A stretch of 47,954 bases of DNA, from positions 1 through 47,954 of the forward strand of contig JAJQEA010000058.1 in assembly GCA_021201905.1 (NCBI GenBank), in the 5' to 3' direction. The notes beneath the pieces are model-generated. The model had not been told where the DNA came from, searched no databases, and worked only from the letters and a program-made list of their open reading frames with translations. The translations under genes were made by a program, and so were the position numbers. Below, piece by piece: positions 13,228-35,274 of the stretch (positions within the stretch are counted from its first letter, which is position 1; the number at the start of each line of letters is the position of its first letter). The DNA comes from Clostridia bacterium. GTDB lineage: Bacteria > Bacillota > Clostridia > Lachnospirales > Lachnospiraceae.

Positions 13228-14151
13228 ATGTCTCATATTTATGACTTAATTATTATCGGCTCCGGACCGGCAGGTCTTGCAGCCGCTGTTTACGCCCAGA
13301 GGGCAAAGCTGGATACCCTTGTGGTTGAGAAGGCCATGGTCAGCGGAGGCCAGGTCCTGACCACATATGAGGTGGATAACTATCCCGGACTTCCCGGCAT
13401 CGGCGGATACGATCTGGGCCTTAAGTTCAGGGAACACGCGGACCGTCTGGGAGCCAGGTTTGTGGAGGACGAGGTTTTGAAAATCCAGGATGGAGGCAGG
13501 GGAGCTGTCAAGAGCGTGGTGTGTCAGGAAAACACCTATGAGGCAAGGGCCCTTATACTTGCCACGGGAGCTGTCCACAGGAAGCTGAGTGTTCCGGGTG
13601 AGGAAGAACTGGCAGGAGCCGGGGTGTCCTACTGTGCCACCTGCGACGGGGCGTTTTTCCGCAATAAGGTAACGGCTGTCATCGGGGGCGGTGATGTGGC
13701 TGTGGAGGATGCCATTTTCCTGGCGCGTATGTGCAGCAAGGTATATCTGATTCACAGGAGAAATGAGCTGCGGGCAGCCAAGAGCCTCCAGGAGAATCTG
13801 CTGTCCCTGGACAATGTGGAGGTAATCTGGGATACGGTGGCTGACAGTATCAATGGGGAGGGAATGGTAAAGAGCCTTTCCCTCACCAATGTAAAGGACG
13901 GACAGAAAAGGGAACTGGAAGTGCAGGGCGTGTTTATTGCAGTGGGCATATCACCGGAGAGCAGGGCCTTTGAGGGACTGGTGGATATGGACCACGGCTA
14001 TATCAGGGCCGGGGAGGACACCGTGACATCGGCGCCTGGTATATTTGCGGCAGGCGATGTGAGGACCAAGCCCCTCCGCCAGATTATCACGGCTGCCGCG
14101 GACGGGGCAAATGCGATAACCAGTGTGGAGCGGTATCTGGTAGAGAATTAG
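13228..14151 (+). CDS. trxB: Thioredoxin reductase-family FAD/NAD(P) oxidoreductase
   Basis: IIGSGPAGLAAAVYAQRA, redox motif CATCDGAFF, GIFAAGDVRTKPLRQIITAAADGA. Confidence 0.92.
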   Translation: MSHIYDLIIIGSGPAGLAAAVYAQRAKLDTLVVEKAMVSGGQVLTTYEVDNYPGLPGIGGYDLGLKFREHADRLGARFVEDEVLKIQDGGRGAVKSVVCQENTYEARALILATGAVHRKLSVPGEEELAGAGVSYCATCDGAFFRNKVTAVIGGGDVAVEDAIFLARMCSKVYLIHRRNELRAAKSLQENLLSLDNVEVIWDTVADSINGEGMVKSLSLTNVKDGQKRELEVQGVFIAVGISPESRAFEGLVDMDHGYIRAGEDTVTSAPGIFAAGDVRTKPLRQIITAAADGANAITSVERYLVEN

Positions 14152-14167
14152 GGGAGGCAGGCTACAG

Positions 14168-15682
14168 ATGAATAACTGGAAGAAAGTAATCGTGCTCAGC
14201 GGTTTGTGCAGCTGCGCGCTTTCGGTGAACGCCTTTGCGTCCACAAACCTGGAGACGGGATCTTCTCTGGCTGGTATATCCGTTGCGCTGAATAATTATT
14301 ATGCAGGTAACACAGAGCCGGAAAAGCAGCTGGCTTCATCCTATTCTAACATACAGAACAAGTCTGCCCAGTCAAATACAGCCGCAGCCTCCGCCAAGAG
14401 CGGTTTAGGCAGCGGCCAGGACAGCGACAATAAGGGCAGCGATAATAAAGGCGGCAGCCAGTCCGGCATCGCCTCAGGGGACGCCGGAAAGGCAAAGGCG
14501 GCCCAGGAGACCGCGTCCAAGCCAAAGTCCTCAGCGTATGATAACATTGCAGTGTCAAAGATAAACGGCACGGTGAACATCCGCACAGAGGCCAACACCA
14601 GCAGCGGTGTGACCGGCAAGATTAACAATGATTGCACGGCCACCATCCTGGATACGGTGGACGGAGAGGGCGGAAAATGGTACAAGATTCAGTCCGGTTC
14701 CGTTACCGGATACATAAAAGCAGATTATTTTGTGACAGGACAGCAGGCAGAATCCAGGGCCAAGCAGGTGGGAACCACCTATGGCACCATAGTGGGCACC
14801 CCCAGCCTGCGTCTGAGACAGAGCCCCGACATGGAAGGAAAGACGCTGACTCTGCTGTCAGAGGGCGCCCGCTATGTGGTTACGGGCGAGGAAGGTGATT
14901 TCCTGAAGGTCCAGGTGGATTCGGATTTGGAAGGTTATGTGTTTAAGGAATATATGAAGACCAGTGTGGAGTTCAACAAAGCTGTGTCGGTGGAAGAGGA
15001 GAAGGCTAAGGCGGCAGAGGAGGCCAAGCGCAAGGAAGAGGCGGACAAGGCCCTGAAGGCTCTGGAGGATGCGAAGAAGGCGGATGCGGCCAAGAAGACC
15101 ACGGCGGCCACCACAAAGGCCGAGAAAACCACGGAAGCTCCTGCCACGACGGCTCCCAAGAAGGAAGAGACAAAGGGAACAGACGCCGTCACCACCATTG
15201 CCGCCAATCCTGAGAACGGCAAGGACAGTACGGTGGCAGCGCCCACAACGGCAAAGGCGCCTGAGACGGTGGACAGCAAGGGTCCGGGCTCTCCTGGCGG
15301 AACCTCCACAGAGGTGGCTTCCGCAACCCGTAACGCGGTGGTGGCATACGCAAAGCAGTTCCTGGGCAACCCCTATGTGTACGGCGGGACAAGCCTGACA
15401 AGCGGAGCCGACTGTTCCGGATTTACCCAGAGCGTATTTGCCCATTTTGGCATCAGTACGGGAAGAAGCTCCAGGGACCAGGCTGCCAGAGGAAAGGCCA
15501 TATCAGTCAGCGATGCCAAGCCGGGAGATCTGCTGTTCTATGCCAGCGGCGATTACATCAACCATGTGGCTATCTACATAGGCGGCGGACAGGTTATCCA
15601 CGCCAGCAATCCCACCACGGGTATCTGCATTATGCCGGCAAATTACAGGACGCCCTGTAAGGCAGTGACATTTTTGGATTAA
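14168..15682 (+). CDS. Secreted NlpC/P60 (C40) peptidoglycan endopeptidase with two SH3-type domains and an Ala/Lys/Thr-rich linker
   Basis: VNIRTEANTSSGVTGKI and LRLRQSPDMEGKTLTLL SH3 motifs; YVYGGTSLTSGADCSGFTQSVF...GDLLFYASGDYINHVAIYIG catalytic domain. Confidence 0.92.
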   Translation: MNNWKKVIVLSGLCSCALSVNAFASTNLETGSSLAGISVALNNYYAGNTEPEKQLASSYSNIQNKSAQSNTAAASAKSGLGSGQDSDNKGSDNKGGSQSGIASGDAGKAKAAQETASKPKSSAYDNIAVSKINGTVNIRTEANTSSGVTGKINNDCTATILDTVDGEGGKWYKIQSGSVTGYIKADYFVTGQQAESRAKQVGTTYGTIVGTPSLRLRQSPDMEGKTLTLLSEGARYVVTGEEGDFLKVQVDSDLEGYVFKEYMKTSVEFNKAVSVEEEKAKAAEEAKRKEEADKALKALEDAKKADAAKKTTAATTKAEKTTEAPATTAPKKEETKGTDAVTTIAANPENGKDSTVAAPTTAKAPETVDSKGPGSPGGTSTEVASATRNAVVAYAKQFLGNPYVYGGTSLTSGADCSGFTQSVFAHFGISTGRSSRDQAARGKAISVSDAKPGDLLFYASGDYINHVAIYIGGGQVIHASNPTTGICIMPANYRTPCKAVTFLD

Positions 15683-31465: not shown

Positions 31466-31996
31466 TTAGAACTCGGGCTCAATCAGTCCGTAAGTTCCGT
31501 TCTTGCGCTTATAGACTACGTTCACCTGGTCCGTATCTGCGTTCAGGAACACGTAGAAATTATGTCCCAGCATCTCCATCTGGAGGCATGCTTCCTCGGG
31601 AATGGTTGGCTTGATGGCAAATTTCTTTGTCTTGACAATCTGGATCTCGTCATCCTGTACTTCCTCCTCTTCCTCTATAAAAGCCTGGGAGAAAGAGATG
31701 GCGGCCTGTTTCTTATCAATGAGTTTCTTTCTATATCTGCGGATCTGGCGCTCAATGATTTCCTCTACCAGATCAATGGATACATACATATCGGAGCTGG
31801 ATTCCTCCGCGCGGATGATATTGCCTTTGACTGGGATAGTCACCTCGATTTTTTGTCGGTCTTTCTGTGCGCTCAGCGCTACGATTACTTCGGTGTCCGG
31901 AGTAAAGAAGTGTTCCAGCTTGCCGATCTTCTTTTCGATGGCAGCCTTCAAACCTGGAGTTACCTCAATATTTCGTCCTGTTATGGTATAACGCAT
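31466..31996 (-). CDS. hpf: Long-form ribosome hibernation promoting factor
   Basis: MRYTITGRNIEVTPGLKAAIEKKIGKLEHFF; C-terminal dimerisation domain EEACLQMEMLGHNFYVFLNADTDQVNVVYKRKNGTYGLIEPEF. Confidence 0.94.
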   Translation of the reverse strand: MRYTITGRNIEVTPGLKAAIEKKIGKLEHFFTPDTEVIVALSAQKDRQKIEVTIPVKGNIIRAEESSSDMYVSIDLVEEIIERQIRRYRKKLIDKKQAAISFSQAFIEEEEEVQDDEIQIVKTKKFAIKPTIPEEACLQMEMLGHNFYVFLNADTDQVNVVYKRKNGTYGLIEPEF

Positions 31997-32272
31997 AAAC
32001 ATCAACTCCTTTTCTTGGGATAGTGACATTATATCATATTTATTGTAAAATTACAATCAGAACCTAAGAATTGTTTAACAATTTATCTTAATTTTTTATA
32101 AAAATTTGTTTCAAACCCGGGAAAGAGCTATTGCATTCCTAATAGCAGACTCCTTGAAATGTCAAGAGAAAACCGTGTTTTTTCTTCCGTACTTATCAAG
32201 TTTATCAGAAGTGTACAAAAATAAAATAAATGTAAAGTCGGAAGGGGAAGGACAGCGGAAAAGTTATAAACT

Positions 32273-32390
32273 TGTGGATAATGTGGATAAGTTGGTGTAT
32301 AACTATTTTTTGCCTTAAAATGGACAAACTGTGATGTGGATAACTTTGGGGGTAATGTGTATAAATTTCTGGGGATAATGTGGACAGGTA
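32273..32390 (+). promoter_or_regulatory. Cluster of DnaA-box-like 9-mers
   Basis: TGTGGATAA (= TTATCCACA complement) at 32273-32281, 32282-32290 and 32335-32343; one-mismatch copies at 32356-32364 and 32370-32378; two-mismatch copies at 32294-32302 and 32379-32387. Confidence 0.65.
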
Positions 32391-32700
32391 AAAAATCGAA
32401 CACATTTTTTGTGCAATCTGCTTGGTTGACCATAAGTCCGGAGAAAATGGACAAAATGTTAATTTTTCATTAACCCGTTGAATTAATCTTACTCAAGTGC
32501 TACAATAAGTAAGATTGTATCATAGGCGCAGTATTTGTAGTGTTTTATCCGAAAAGTCCACATATAAAAGGTATTGTGGAAAGGCAAGGAATAGACAGGA
32601 ATTAGCAGACAGATAATAGATGATAAGGCAGATGCTGCAGGTACGGGCGCTGGTTGAAAATTAGTTTCTATTATATAGGAAGAAGTTAGGAGAGTATACC

Positions 32701-35274
32701 ATGAACTTGATTGAAAAGGTGTTCGGGACTCACAGTGAAAGAGAACTGAAGATGATAAGGCCAATCGTGACAAAGATTGAATCTCTGCGTCCCGAGATGA
32801 TGGCCATGTCTGATGAGGAGCTGCGTGACCAGACCAGAATCTTTAGAGAGAGGCTTGCAGACGGCGCCACCCTGGATGACGTTCTGCCGGAGGCGTTTGC
32901 CACGGTCCGTGAGGCGGCAAGAAGAACTCTGAATATGGAGCATTTCCCTGTACAGCTGATTGGCGGTATCGTACTGCATCAGGGCCGTATTGCTGAGATG
33001 CGTACTGGTGAAGGTAAGACGCTGGTATCCACCTGTCCCGCATACCTGAATGCATTGAAGGGAAAGGGCGTTCAGATCGTAACGGTCAATGACTACCTGG
33101 CAAAGCGTGACGCCGAGTGGATGGGTCAGGTGCACAGATTCCTGGGCATGACCGTTGGCGTTGTACTGAACGACATGACAAGTGAACAGCGTAAGGAGGC
33201 ATATGCCTGCGACATTACTTACGTGACAAATAATGAGCTGGGTTTCGATTACCTGCGTGATAACATGTCCATTTATAAGGAGCAGCTGGTGCTGCGCGAC
33301 CTGGACTACTGTATCATCGATGAGGTTGACTCTGTGCTGATTGACGAGGCCAGGACGCCTCTTATCATTTCCGGACAGAGCGGCAAGTCCACCAAGCTGT
33401 ATGAGGTGTGCGATGTGCTGGCACGCCAGCTGGAGAGAGGTACCGTGTCCAAGGAATTCTCCAAGATCGACGCCATCATGGGCGAGGAGATTGAGGAGAC
33501 CGGCGATTTCGTTGTGGATGAAAAGGATAAGGTAGTAAACCTGACAGAACAGGGCGTCAAGAAGGTGGAGGAGTACTTCCATATTGAAAACCTGGCGGAT
33601 CCTGAGAATCTGGAGATCCAGCATAACATTATCCTGGCTCTGCGCGCCAATAACCTGATGTTCAGGGATAAGGATTATGTTGTAAAGGACGACGAGGTCC
33701 TGATTGTAGATGAGTTTACAGGACGTATTATGCCCGGCCGCCGTTATTCCGACGGACTCCATCAGGCAATCGAGGCAAAGGAGCACGTAAATGTGCGCCG
33801 GGAGTCCCGCACCCTGGCTACCGTAACATTCCAGAACTTCTTCAACAAGTATACGAAGAAGGCAGGTATGACGGGTACTGCCCAGACCGAGGAAAAAGAG
33901 TTCCGCAACATCTATGCCATGGACGTTATCGTCATCCCCACCAACAGGCCTATGATCCGTAAGGACCTGGAGGATGCTGTATATAAGACAAAGAAAGAGA
34001 AATACAAGGCAGTTGTGGACGAGGTGGAGAAGGCACATGAGAAGGGACAGCCTGTCCTGGTGGGTACCATTGCCATCGAGACTTCCGAGCTTCTGAGCAA
34101 GATGCTGACTAAAAAGGGAATTCCCCATAAAGTACTGAATGCCAAGTTCCATGAGCTGGAGGCTGAGATTGTAGCAGACGCAGGTATCCACGGCTCTGTC
34201 ACCATTGCCACCAACATGGCTGGCCGTGGTACGGATATTAAGCTGGACGAGGAGACCAAGGCCCTGGGCGGCCTTAAGATCATCGGTACGGAGCGCCATG
34301 AGTCACGCCGTATTGACAACCAGCTGCGTGGCCGTTCCGGACGTCAGGGAGACCCGGGTGAATCCAGGTTCTACCTGTCCCTGGAGGATGACCTGTTAAG
34401 GCTCTTTGGTTCAGACCGTCTTATGGCCATGTTTGAGGCCATGGGTGTGCCGGAGGGAGAGCAGATTGAGCATAAGATGCTGTCCAATGCCATCGAGAAG
34501 GCACAGATGAAGATAGAGAGCAACAACTACGGTATCCGTGAGCAGCTCCTTAAGTTCGACGAGGTCAACAATGAGCAGCGCGAGGTTATCTACGCAGAGC
34601 GCCGCAAGGTGCTGGACGGCGACAACATGCGCGATCTTGTGCTCAAGATGATCACAAACACAGTGGAGAATGCGGTGGATATCTCCGTGTCCGATGACCA
34701 GACCCCGGATAAGTGGGATTTGCAGGAACTGAATAACCTCCTTCTTCCGGTCATTCCTCTGAAGCCGGTAACTCTTACCGACGAACAGAAGAAGTCCATG
34801 AAGAAGAATGAGCTCAAGCACAACCTGAAGGAAGAGGCCATCAAGCTTTACGAGACAAAGGAAGCTGAGTTCCCGGAGCCGGAGCAGATCCGTGAGATTG
34901 AGCGCGTGGTCCTGCTGAAGGTAATTGACAACAAGTGGATGGCGCATCTGGATGACATGGACGCGCTGCGCGAGGGCATCGGCCTTCAGGCATACGGCCA
35001 GAGGGATCCTGTGGTTGAATATAAGATGCAGGGTTATGAGATGTACGAGTCCATGATGGCTTCCATCCAGGAGGAGACAATCCGGATTCTGTTCCATATC
35101 CGCGTAGAGCAGAAGGTGGAGCGTGAACCGGCTACCAAGGTGACAGGCACGAACAAGGATGCATCTGCCCCCAGCGCCCCCAAGAAGCGGGTGGAGCAGA
35201 AGATATACCCCAACGACCCATGCCCCTGCGGTTCCGGCAAGAAGTACAAACAGTGCCACGGAAGAATTAAATAA
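32701..35274 (+). CDS. secA: Preprotein translocase ATPase SecA
   Basis: [83 protein letters not shown]. Confidence 0.98.

Follow-up and report, generated by a model that had tools for sequence, protein, structure and literature searches.

A conserved DnaA-box array, most often found upstream of hpf, as the putative core of an autonomous DnaA-control element in Lachnospiraceae

Introduction

In an Enterocloster genome of 5.85 Mb (431 contigs), the gap between the divergent genes hpf and secA holds a tight array of DnaA boxes away from dnaA, which raises the question of what such an array is doing there and to which gene, if any, it belongs. An earlier note on this DNA had put forward a DnaA titration or regulatory site, control of secA or of hpf, and a secondary origin element. 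The window, meaning the whole stretch of 47,954 nucleotides that was analysed, is contig 98 of this genome, for which contamination is estimated at 8%; the array locus is syntenic with that of other Enterocloster genomes. Lachnospiraceae are among the dominant human gut bacteria, and little is known about the timing of their replication. Full-text searches of the open-access literature gave no relevant paper that connects DnaA boxes to hibernation promoting factor, to the secA cluster or to Lachnospiraceae.

The DnaA-Box Array of the hpf-secA Gap

A motif scan reproduced the three perfect TTATCCACA boxes of the earlier note, two of them abutting, and its two one-mismatch copies, all in one orientation (Table 1); double-mismatch copies are present as well, except that they number three (starting at 32294, 32347 and 32379) and not two. 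The rest of the window contains no further perfect box. The gap (32030-32700), which had been described as AT-rich and roughly 700 bp long, indeed measures 671 bp, with 33% G+C against 51% for the window, and dnaA is away from the array, on contig G000:C398.

The grouping of the boxes exceeds chance: two or more same-strand perfect boxes within 71 bp were seen in 0 of 20,000 simulated gaps (first-order Markov copies). The genome-wide count and density check proposed in the earlier note points the same way, with 136 perfect boxes in 5.85 Mb against 30 occurrences of the reversed control word and, at this density, about 5e-5 such triplets expected per genome. In grouping several boxes outside oriC above chance, the array resembles a DnaA-box cluster of the B. 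subtilis type. As a separate observation, TTATCCACA is about 4.5 times commoner than its own reversed word in this genome, and DnaA boxes may be enriched genome-wide.

Table 1. Features of the array and its surroundings in the Enterocloster window.
Feature	Position	Strand	Basis
TTATCCACATTATCCACA, abutting head-to-tail pair of perfect boxes (32273-32281 and 32282-32290)	32273..32290	-	motif scan; top conservation among 78 aligned hpf upstream regions
Weak (two-mismatch) box TTATACACC, 3 bp from pair (12-bp step)	32294..32302	-	family-conserved; within 30-mer matching 110/200 genomes
Third perfect box, 53 bp upstream of pair	32335..32343	-	motif scan; spacing counts in relatives
Two-mismatch box	32347..32355	-	motif scan
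Distal part: one-mismatch boxes TTATACACA (32356-32364) and TTATCCCCA (32370-32378), the latter abutting two-mismatch box CTGTCCACA (32379-32387)	32356..32387	-	motif scan, alignment
Conserved CGAACACATTTTTTGTGCAA block, outer edge of array (hpf direction: GTTCG ... TTGCACAAAAA)	32397..32416	+	conservation profile
Conserved AT-rich stretch ATTTTATTTTTGTACACTTCTGATAAACTT, on the hpf side of the array	32198..32227	-	alignment
TTGAC motif, starting 107 bp downstream of pair	32161..32165	-	rigid spacing (104-109 bp) in relatives
Predicted hpf sigma-A promoter TTGTAA-N17-TATAAT	32028..32056	-	sequence; conserved in relatives
hpf, ribosome hibernation promoting factor; most frequent, not obligatory, neighbour	31466..31999	-	Pfam PF02482 + PF16321
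Predicted secA promoter TTGAAT-N17-TACAAT	32478..32506	+	sequence
secA, neighbour only	32701..35274	+	Pfam SecA domains

Gene Neighbours in Close Relatives

We compared loci by secA and then by hpf, the latter at the 78 hpf loci with enough upstream DNA out of the best 80 named relatives. The best conserved stretch of the 78 aligned upstream regions is AGTTATACACCAAGTTATCCACATTATCCACA; the outer boxes, CGAAC..TTTTTGTGCAA, the AT-rich block (TTTTTGTACACTT.TCATAAA), TTGAC and the hpf promoter are kept as well, and the distal part of the array is a second perfect abutting pair in many relatives. In 72 of the 78 loci the array lies upstream of hpf, always facing it, with mostly 270-279 bp from the end of the pair to the hpf start, while secA can be anywhere from 263 to 3176 bp away from it. 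Even with secA at 1.2-3.5 kb the array keeps its place near hpf, and it does so too where the two genes are codirectional or 30 kb apart.

In the family sample, where secA has no adjoining hpf, no perfect box was found upstream of it in L054, L055, L057, L058, L061 and L063-L065, two exceptions (L350 and L351) having the array facing secA. The array is thus mostly not kept upstream of secA when hpf is elsewhere, and we reject the control of secA that the earlier note had considered, as boxes are mostly absent upstream of hpf-less secA genes and the array remains by hpf even with secA kilobases away. The link with secA is mainly an accident of the divergent hpf-secA arrangement in this group; it is the array that proved conserved, family-wide, and not its tie to secA.

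The same figures fit a reading in which DnaA acts as a transcription regulator of hpf and the array is its operator, linking ribosome hibernation to replication status: both the near-constant placement upstream of hpf and its indifference to the position of secA speak for it, two genomes of other orders also carry the array at hpf, and DnaA is an established transcription regulator (PMC11317965). However, some 220 bp separate the array from a predicted sigma-A promoter downstream of it, and its spacing from hpf turns out to be loose. Helical phasing to the hpf start looked plausible in close relatives (modes at 275, 254 and 222 bp) but was not upheld across genera, where no phase was detected at 10.5 bp over the 178-452 bp range (Rayleigh p ~0.39). 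Further objections come from the rest of the family.

Occurrence and Addresses across the Family and Beyond

A 30-bp core of the array was sought, with at most 3 mismatches, in 200 genomes of the family, nearly every one from a different genus. It was found in 110 of them (109 of 199 genera), almost always as a single copy, while the reversed-control 30-mer gave no match across the same 200 genomes. About 45% of the family genomes have no core match at 3 mismatches, so that the element is not universal at that sensitivity. A narrow gapped pattern overlooked most copies, and the counts given here rest on the 30-mer, which was built from hpf loci and which other box pairs (the dnaD sites described below) can also match at 3 mismatches.

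Sixty-five core copies share a strand with hpf and face it from 178-452 bp upstream; 36 are away from hpf, three of these being a separate site upstream of dnaD (L329, L337 and L349), and 16 more are in genomes where hpf was not found or not listed. Thus the array is not always upstream of hpf at a functional distance: against the 65 genomes where it is, at least 28 genera have their sole copy away from hpf (G351, whose match is a dnaD site, being left out), genera being counted without a tree and not as independent events.

Away from hpf, the array is usually downstream of a trxB-NlpC/P60 gene pair, and the genes beyond it vary (WecG-type glycosyltransferase, V-type ATPase subunit D, trmB and others), gene calls on draft contigs being open reading frames of at least 150 aa, partly confirmed by Pfam. 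Of 35 non-hpf sites, 11 are between the 3' ends of two genes, which excludes a promoter role at those 11; nine of the 11 nevertheless keep TTGAC at 103-108 bp. Compared across these addresses, the sequences show the element to be autonomous, that is, independent of its flanking genes. Control of hpf, also proposed in the earlier note, is thus possible at the majority address and cannot be the whole function, the array being kept without hpf, including between convergent genes; as a full explanation, the operator reading appears rather unlikely to us. We also noted a trxB and NlpC/P60-SH3 pair at 13228-15682 of the window, about 17 kb from the array, which places the two commonest addresses of the element close together there.

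Other orders of Clostridia have a version of the array whose outer box stands at 42-44 bp, shorter by one helical turn. This version is at hpf in two genomes (L352 and L360) and precedes an amino-acid ABC transporter gene or operon in L353-L357 and L363, several copies being beside comFC- or fliS-like genes; the same ABC transporter arrangement recurs upstream of hpf in G059, at 2.6 kb, and in G037, at 10.7 kb. These few genomes suggest that the hpf neighbourhood may be an old address of the element.

Internal Geometry and Accompanying Modules

Loose with respect to its neighbours, the element is rigid inside, at hpf and non-hpf sites alike. Its order is a box, 53 bp, then weak box, box and box at steps of 12 and 9 bp, with TTGAC at 104-109 bp on the downstream side. 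Among 82 distinct elements, 41 have a perfect box at exactly 53 bp from the pair on its upstream side, 53 have one at 52-54 bp, and most have TTGAC at 104-109 bp. Counted by site, TTGAC is found at this distance in 54 of 71 hpf sites and 23 of 37 non-hpf sites, as opposed to 0.9% in shuffles. Such a single non-coding locus of fixed box geometry has the layout of the datA/DARS class of sites.

The constancy of TTGAC could have another origin, namely a promoter of a small RNA or leader, with DnaA as its regulator. Several hpf-type loci do read TTGACW-N16-TATAGT; however, a -10 is not enriched at the proper spacing in non-hpf elements, and Rfam gave no match in or near the element, so that we hold this reading for improbable. 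A second sigma-A promoter built on TTGAC was discarded on the same ground, the -10 being unenriched outside hpf loci.

Modules other than DnaA boxes (CGAAC..TTTTTGTGCAA, TTTTGT..ATAAA and TTGAC) are conserved at set places, and the TTTTGT..ATAAA version of the AT-rich block also accompanies arrays away from hpf. One could thus picture a site for DNA architecture or segregation whose main reader is another protein, DnaA being one component. Yet the DnaA boxes are the best conserved part and no known segregation motif was recognised, which makes this a very unlikely explanation.

A few further resemblances were seen around the array. The CGAACACATTTTTTGTGCAA block, kept in many genera, looks from its letters (CGAAC..TTTTTGTG) like a degenerate LexA box. 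In many relatives (L083-L146), TTCGACA, the reverse complement of the Spo0A box TGTCGAA, comes just past the CATAAA motif; Enterocloster has no TTCGACA between array and hpf. A perfect dyad, AATTGTTTAACAATT, lies at 32069-32083, just upstream of the hpf -35, and is conserved as AATTGT..ACAATT; similar dyads are also present downstream of some element copies away from hpf.

Replication Context

DnaA boxes adjoining conserved AT-rich DNA could also be a backup or secondary replication origin, or the remnant of one, as the earlier note had envisaged. In the complete genome G014, however, the sign change of the GC skew falls at dnaA (6.33 Mb), and both flanks of the element (5.385 Mb) have negative skew, which rules out a primary origin; no DnaA-trio (as defined in PMC7561715) was found beside the array boxes in the hpf-secA gap, and dnaA has a box-rich region of its own. 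An origin of any kind at this place therefore seems to us highly improbable.

For hpf-type elements, the distance to dnaA is 779 kb of 5.39 Mb in G005, 947 kb of 6.35 Mb in G014 and 985 kb of 6.93 Mb in G306, i.e., 14-15% of each genome; in G361, where the element is not at hpf, it is about 182 kb. The element is not at the terminus in the near-complete genomes looked at, and neither its distance from oriC (5-15% of the genome) nor its strand relative to the fork is constant.

Other DnaA-Box Sites in the Genome

Three more sites were seen elsewhere in the Enterocloster genome. The murC-dnaD gap (G000:C260:11880-12062, L031:3881-4063) contains two abutting perfect pairs and a one-mismatch box immediately ahead of a dnaD-like gene with a DnaB_2 domain, after which comes a gene for a dnaI-like helicase loader; this array is present in most Enterocloster genomes and is matched in three other genera (L329, L337 and L349). 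Its position suggests a possible control of the helicase-loading operon by DnaA. Within the reading frame of an RluA-type pseudouridine synthase, at G000:C65:5482-5891 (L032:3983-4466), there are four perfect boxes and several with one mismatch, in both orientations. Lastly, the 18-mer TTATCCACATTATCCACC (G000:C135:21379-21396, L033) is flanked by a FabK-like nitronate monooxygenase gene and a MerR-family gene; it is present once in most Enterocloster genomes.

Discussion

We propose, with a probability of roughly 0.6, that an autonomous chromosomal element of about 250 bp, ancient and usually present once, controls DnaA, and that the array is its DnaA-binding core. Sequence analysis establishes what this proposal builds on, i.e., the sequence itself, its single copy, its conservation, its rigid internal geometry and its independence from flanking genes, and for these reasons a DnaA titration or regulatory site appears as the best supported among the readings of the earlier note. 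The retention at every address of the pair and of the boxes at 12 and 53 bp would fit a fixed DnaA complex titrating or modifying DnaA. On the other side, most copies lie 180-450 bp upstream of the start of a same-strand gene, which would also suit a role in transcription, the core has no match at 3 mismatches in the share of family genomes given above, and its oriC distance and fork strand vary.

The mechanism that we infer for this DnaA-control element would be as follows. Cooperative binding of DnaA to the abutting pair and to the boxes at 12 and 53 bp, on one face of the DNA (53 bp being five helical turns), would give a nucleoprotein complex of fixed shape, and the TTTTGT..ATAAA/TTGAC module at 104-109 bp on the downstream side is probably recognised by a second factor. 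The complex would then act on DnaA, either by holding it or by altering its nucleotide state, and so tune replication initiation in the manner of the B. subtilis DnaA-box clusters and of datA and DARS in E. coli. The position next to hpf would be the commonest address of the element and not its purpose, control of hpf being a possible extra role at this majority address; if the array does act on hpf as well, replication control would be linked to ribosome hibernation.

Only tentatively would we go one step further and see in it the first Firmicutes candidate for a dedicated site of the datA or DARS kind: a Clostridia element, ancient and usually in single copy, that might change the nucleotide state or availability of DnaA through a second factor 104-109 bp from the core pair.

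In B. subtilis, initiation comes early once all six DnaA-box clusters are lost, which has been interpreted as sensitivity to free DnaA (Okumura et al. 2012, cited in PMC5295017 and PMC13220808). As described in these accounts, the clusters resemble the element in being groups of several DnaA boxes outside oriC in a Firmicutes host, and differ from it in being six, whereas one conserved element dominates in Lachnospiraceae. They are not known to share its rigid geometry. E. coli DARS1 and DARS2 are, like the element, compact sets of DnaA boxes at defined spacing outside oriC, a likeness of layout. DARS sites drive the exchange of DnaA-ADP to apo-DnaA/ATP. The E. coli site datA is likewise a non-coding DnaA-box cluster at a single chromosomal place far from oriC; it depends on IHF and stimulates the hydrolysis of DnaA-ATP (PMC5295017). 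Our candidate differs from it in box order, orientation and neighbours, and has a non-DnaA module at fixed distance.

Both datA and DARS are reported absent from B. subtilis, and whether this bacterium balances DnaA-ATP and DnaA-ADP is unknown (2026 review, PMC13220808); a conserved candidate element of fixed geometry in Lachnospiraceae, with a related form in other Clostridia, would offer a small and movable piece of DNA with which to test this question. Finally, in E. coli ChIP-seq, DnaA acting as a transcription factor prefers closely spaced box pairs with a gap of 2-3 bp (PMC11317965), whereas the pair of the element abuts (0 bp) and has its weak box 3 bp away; close pairing is common to both.
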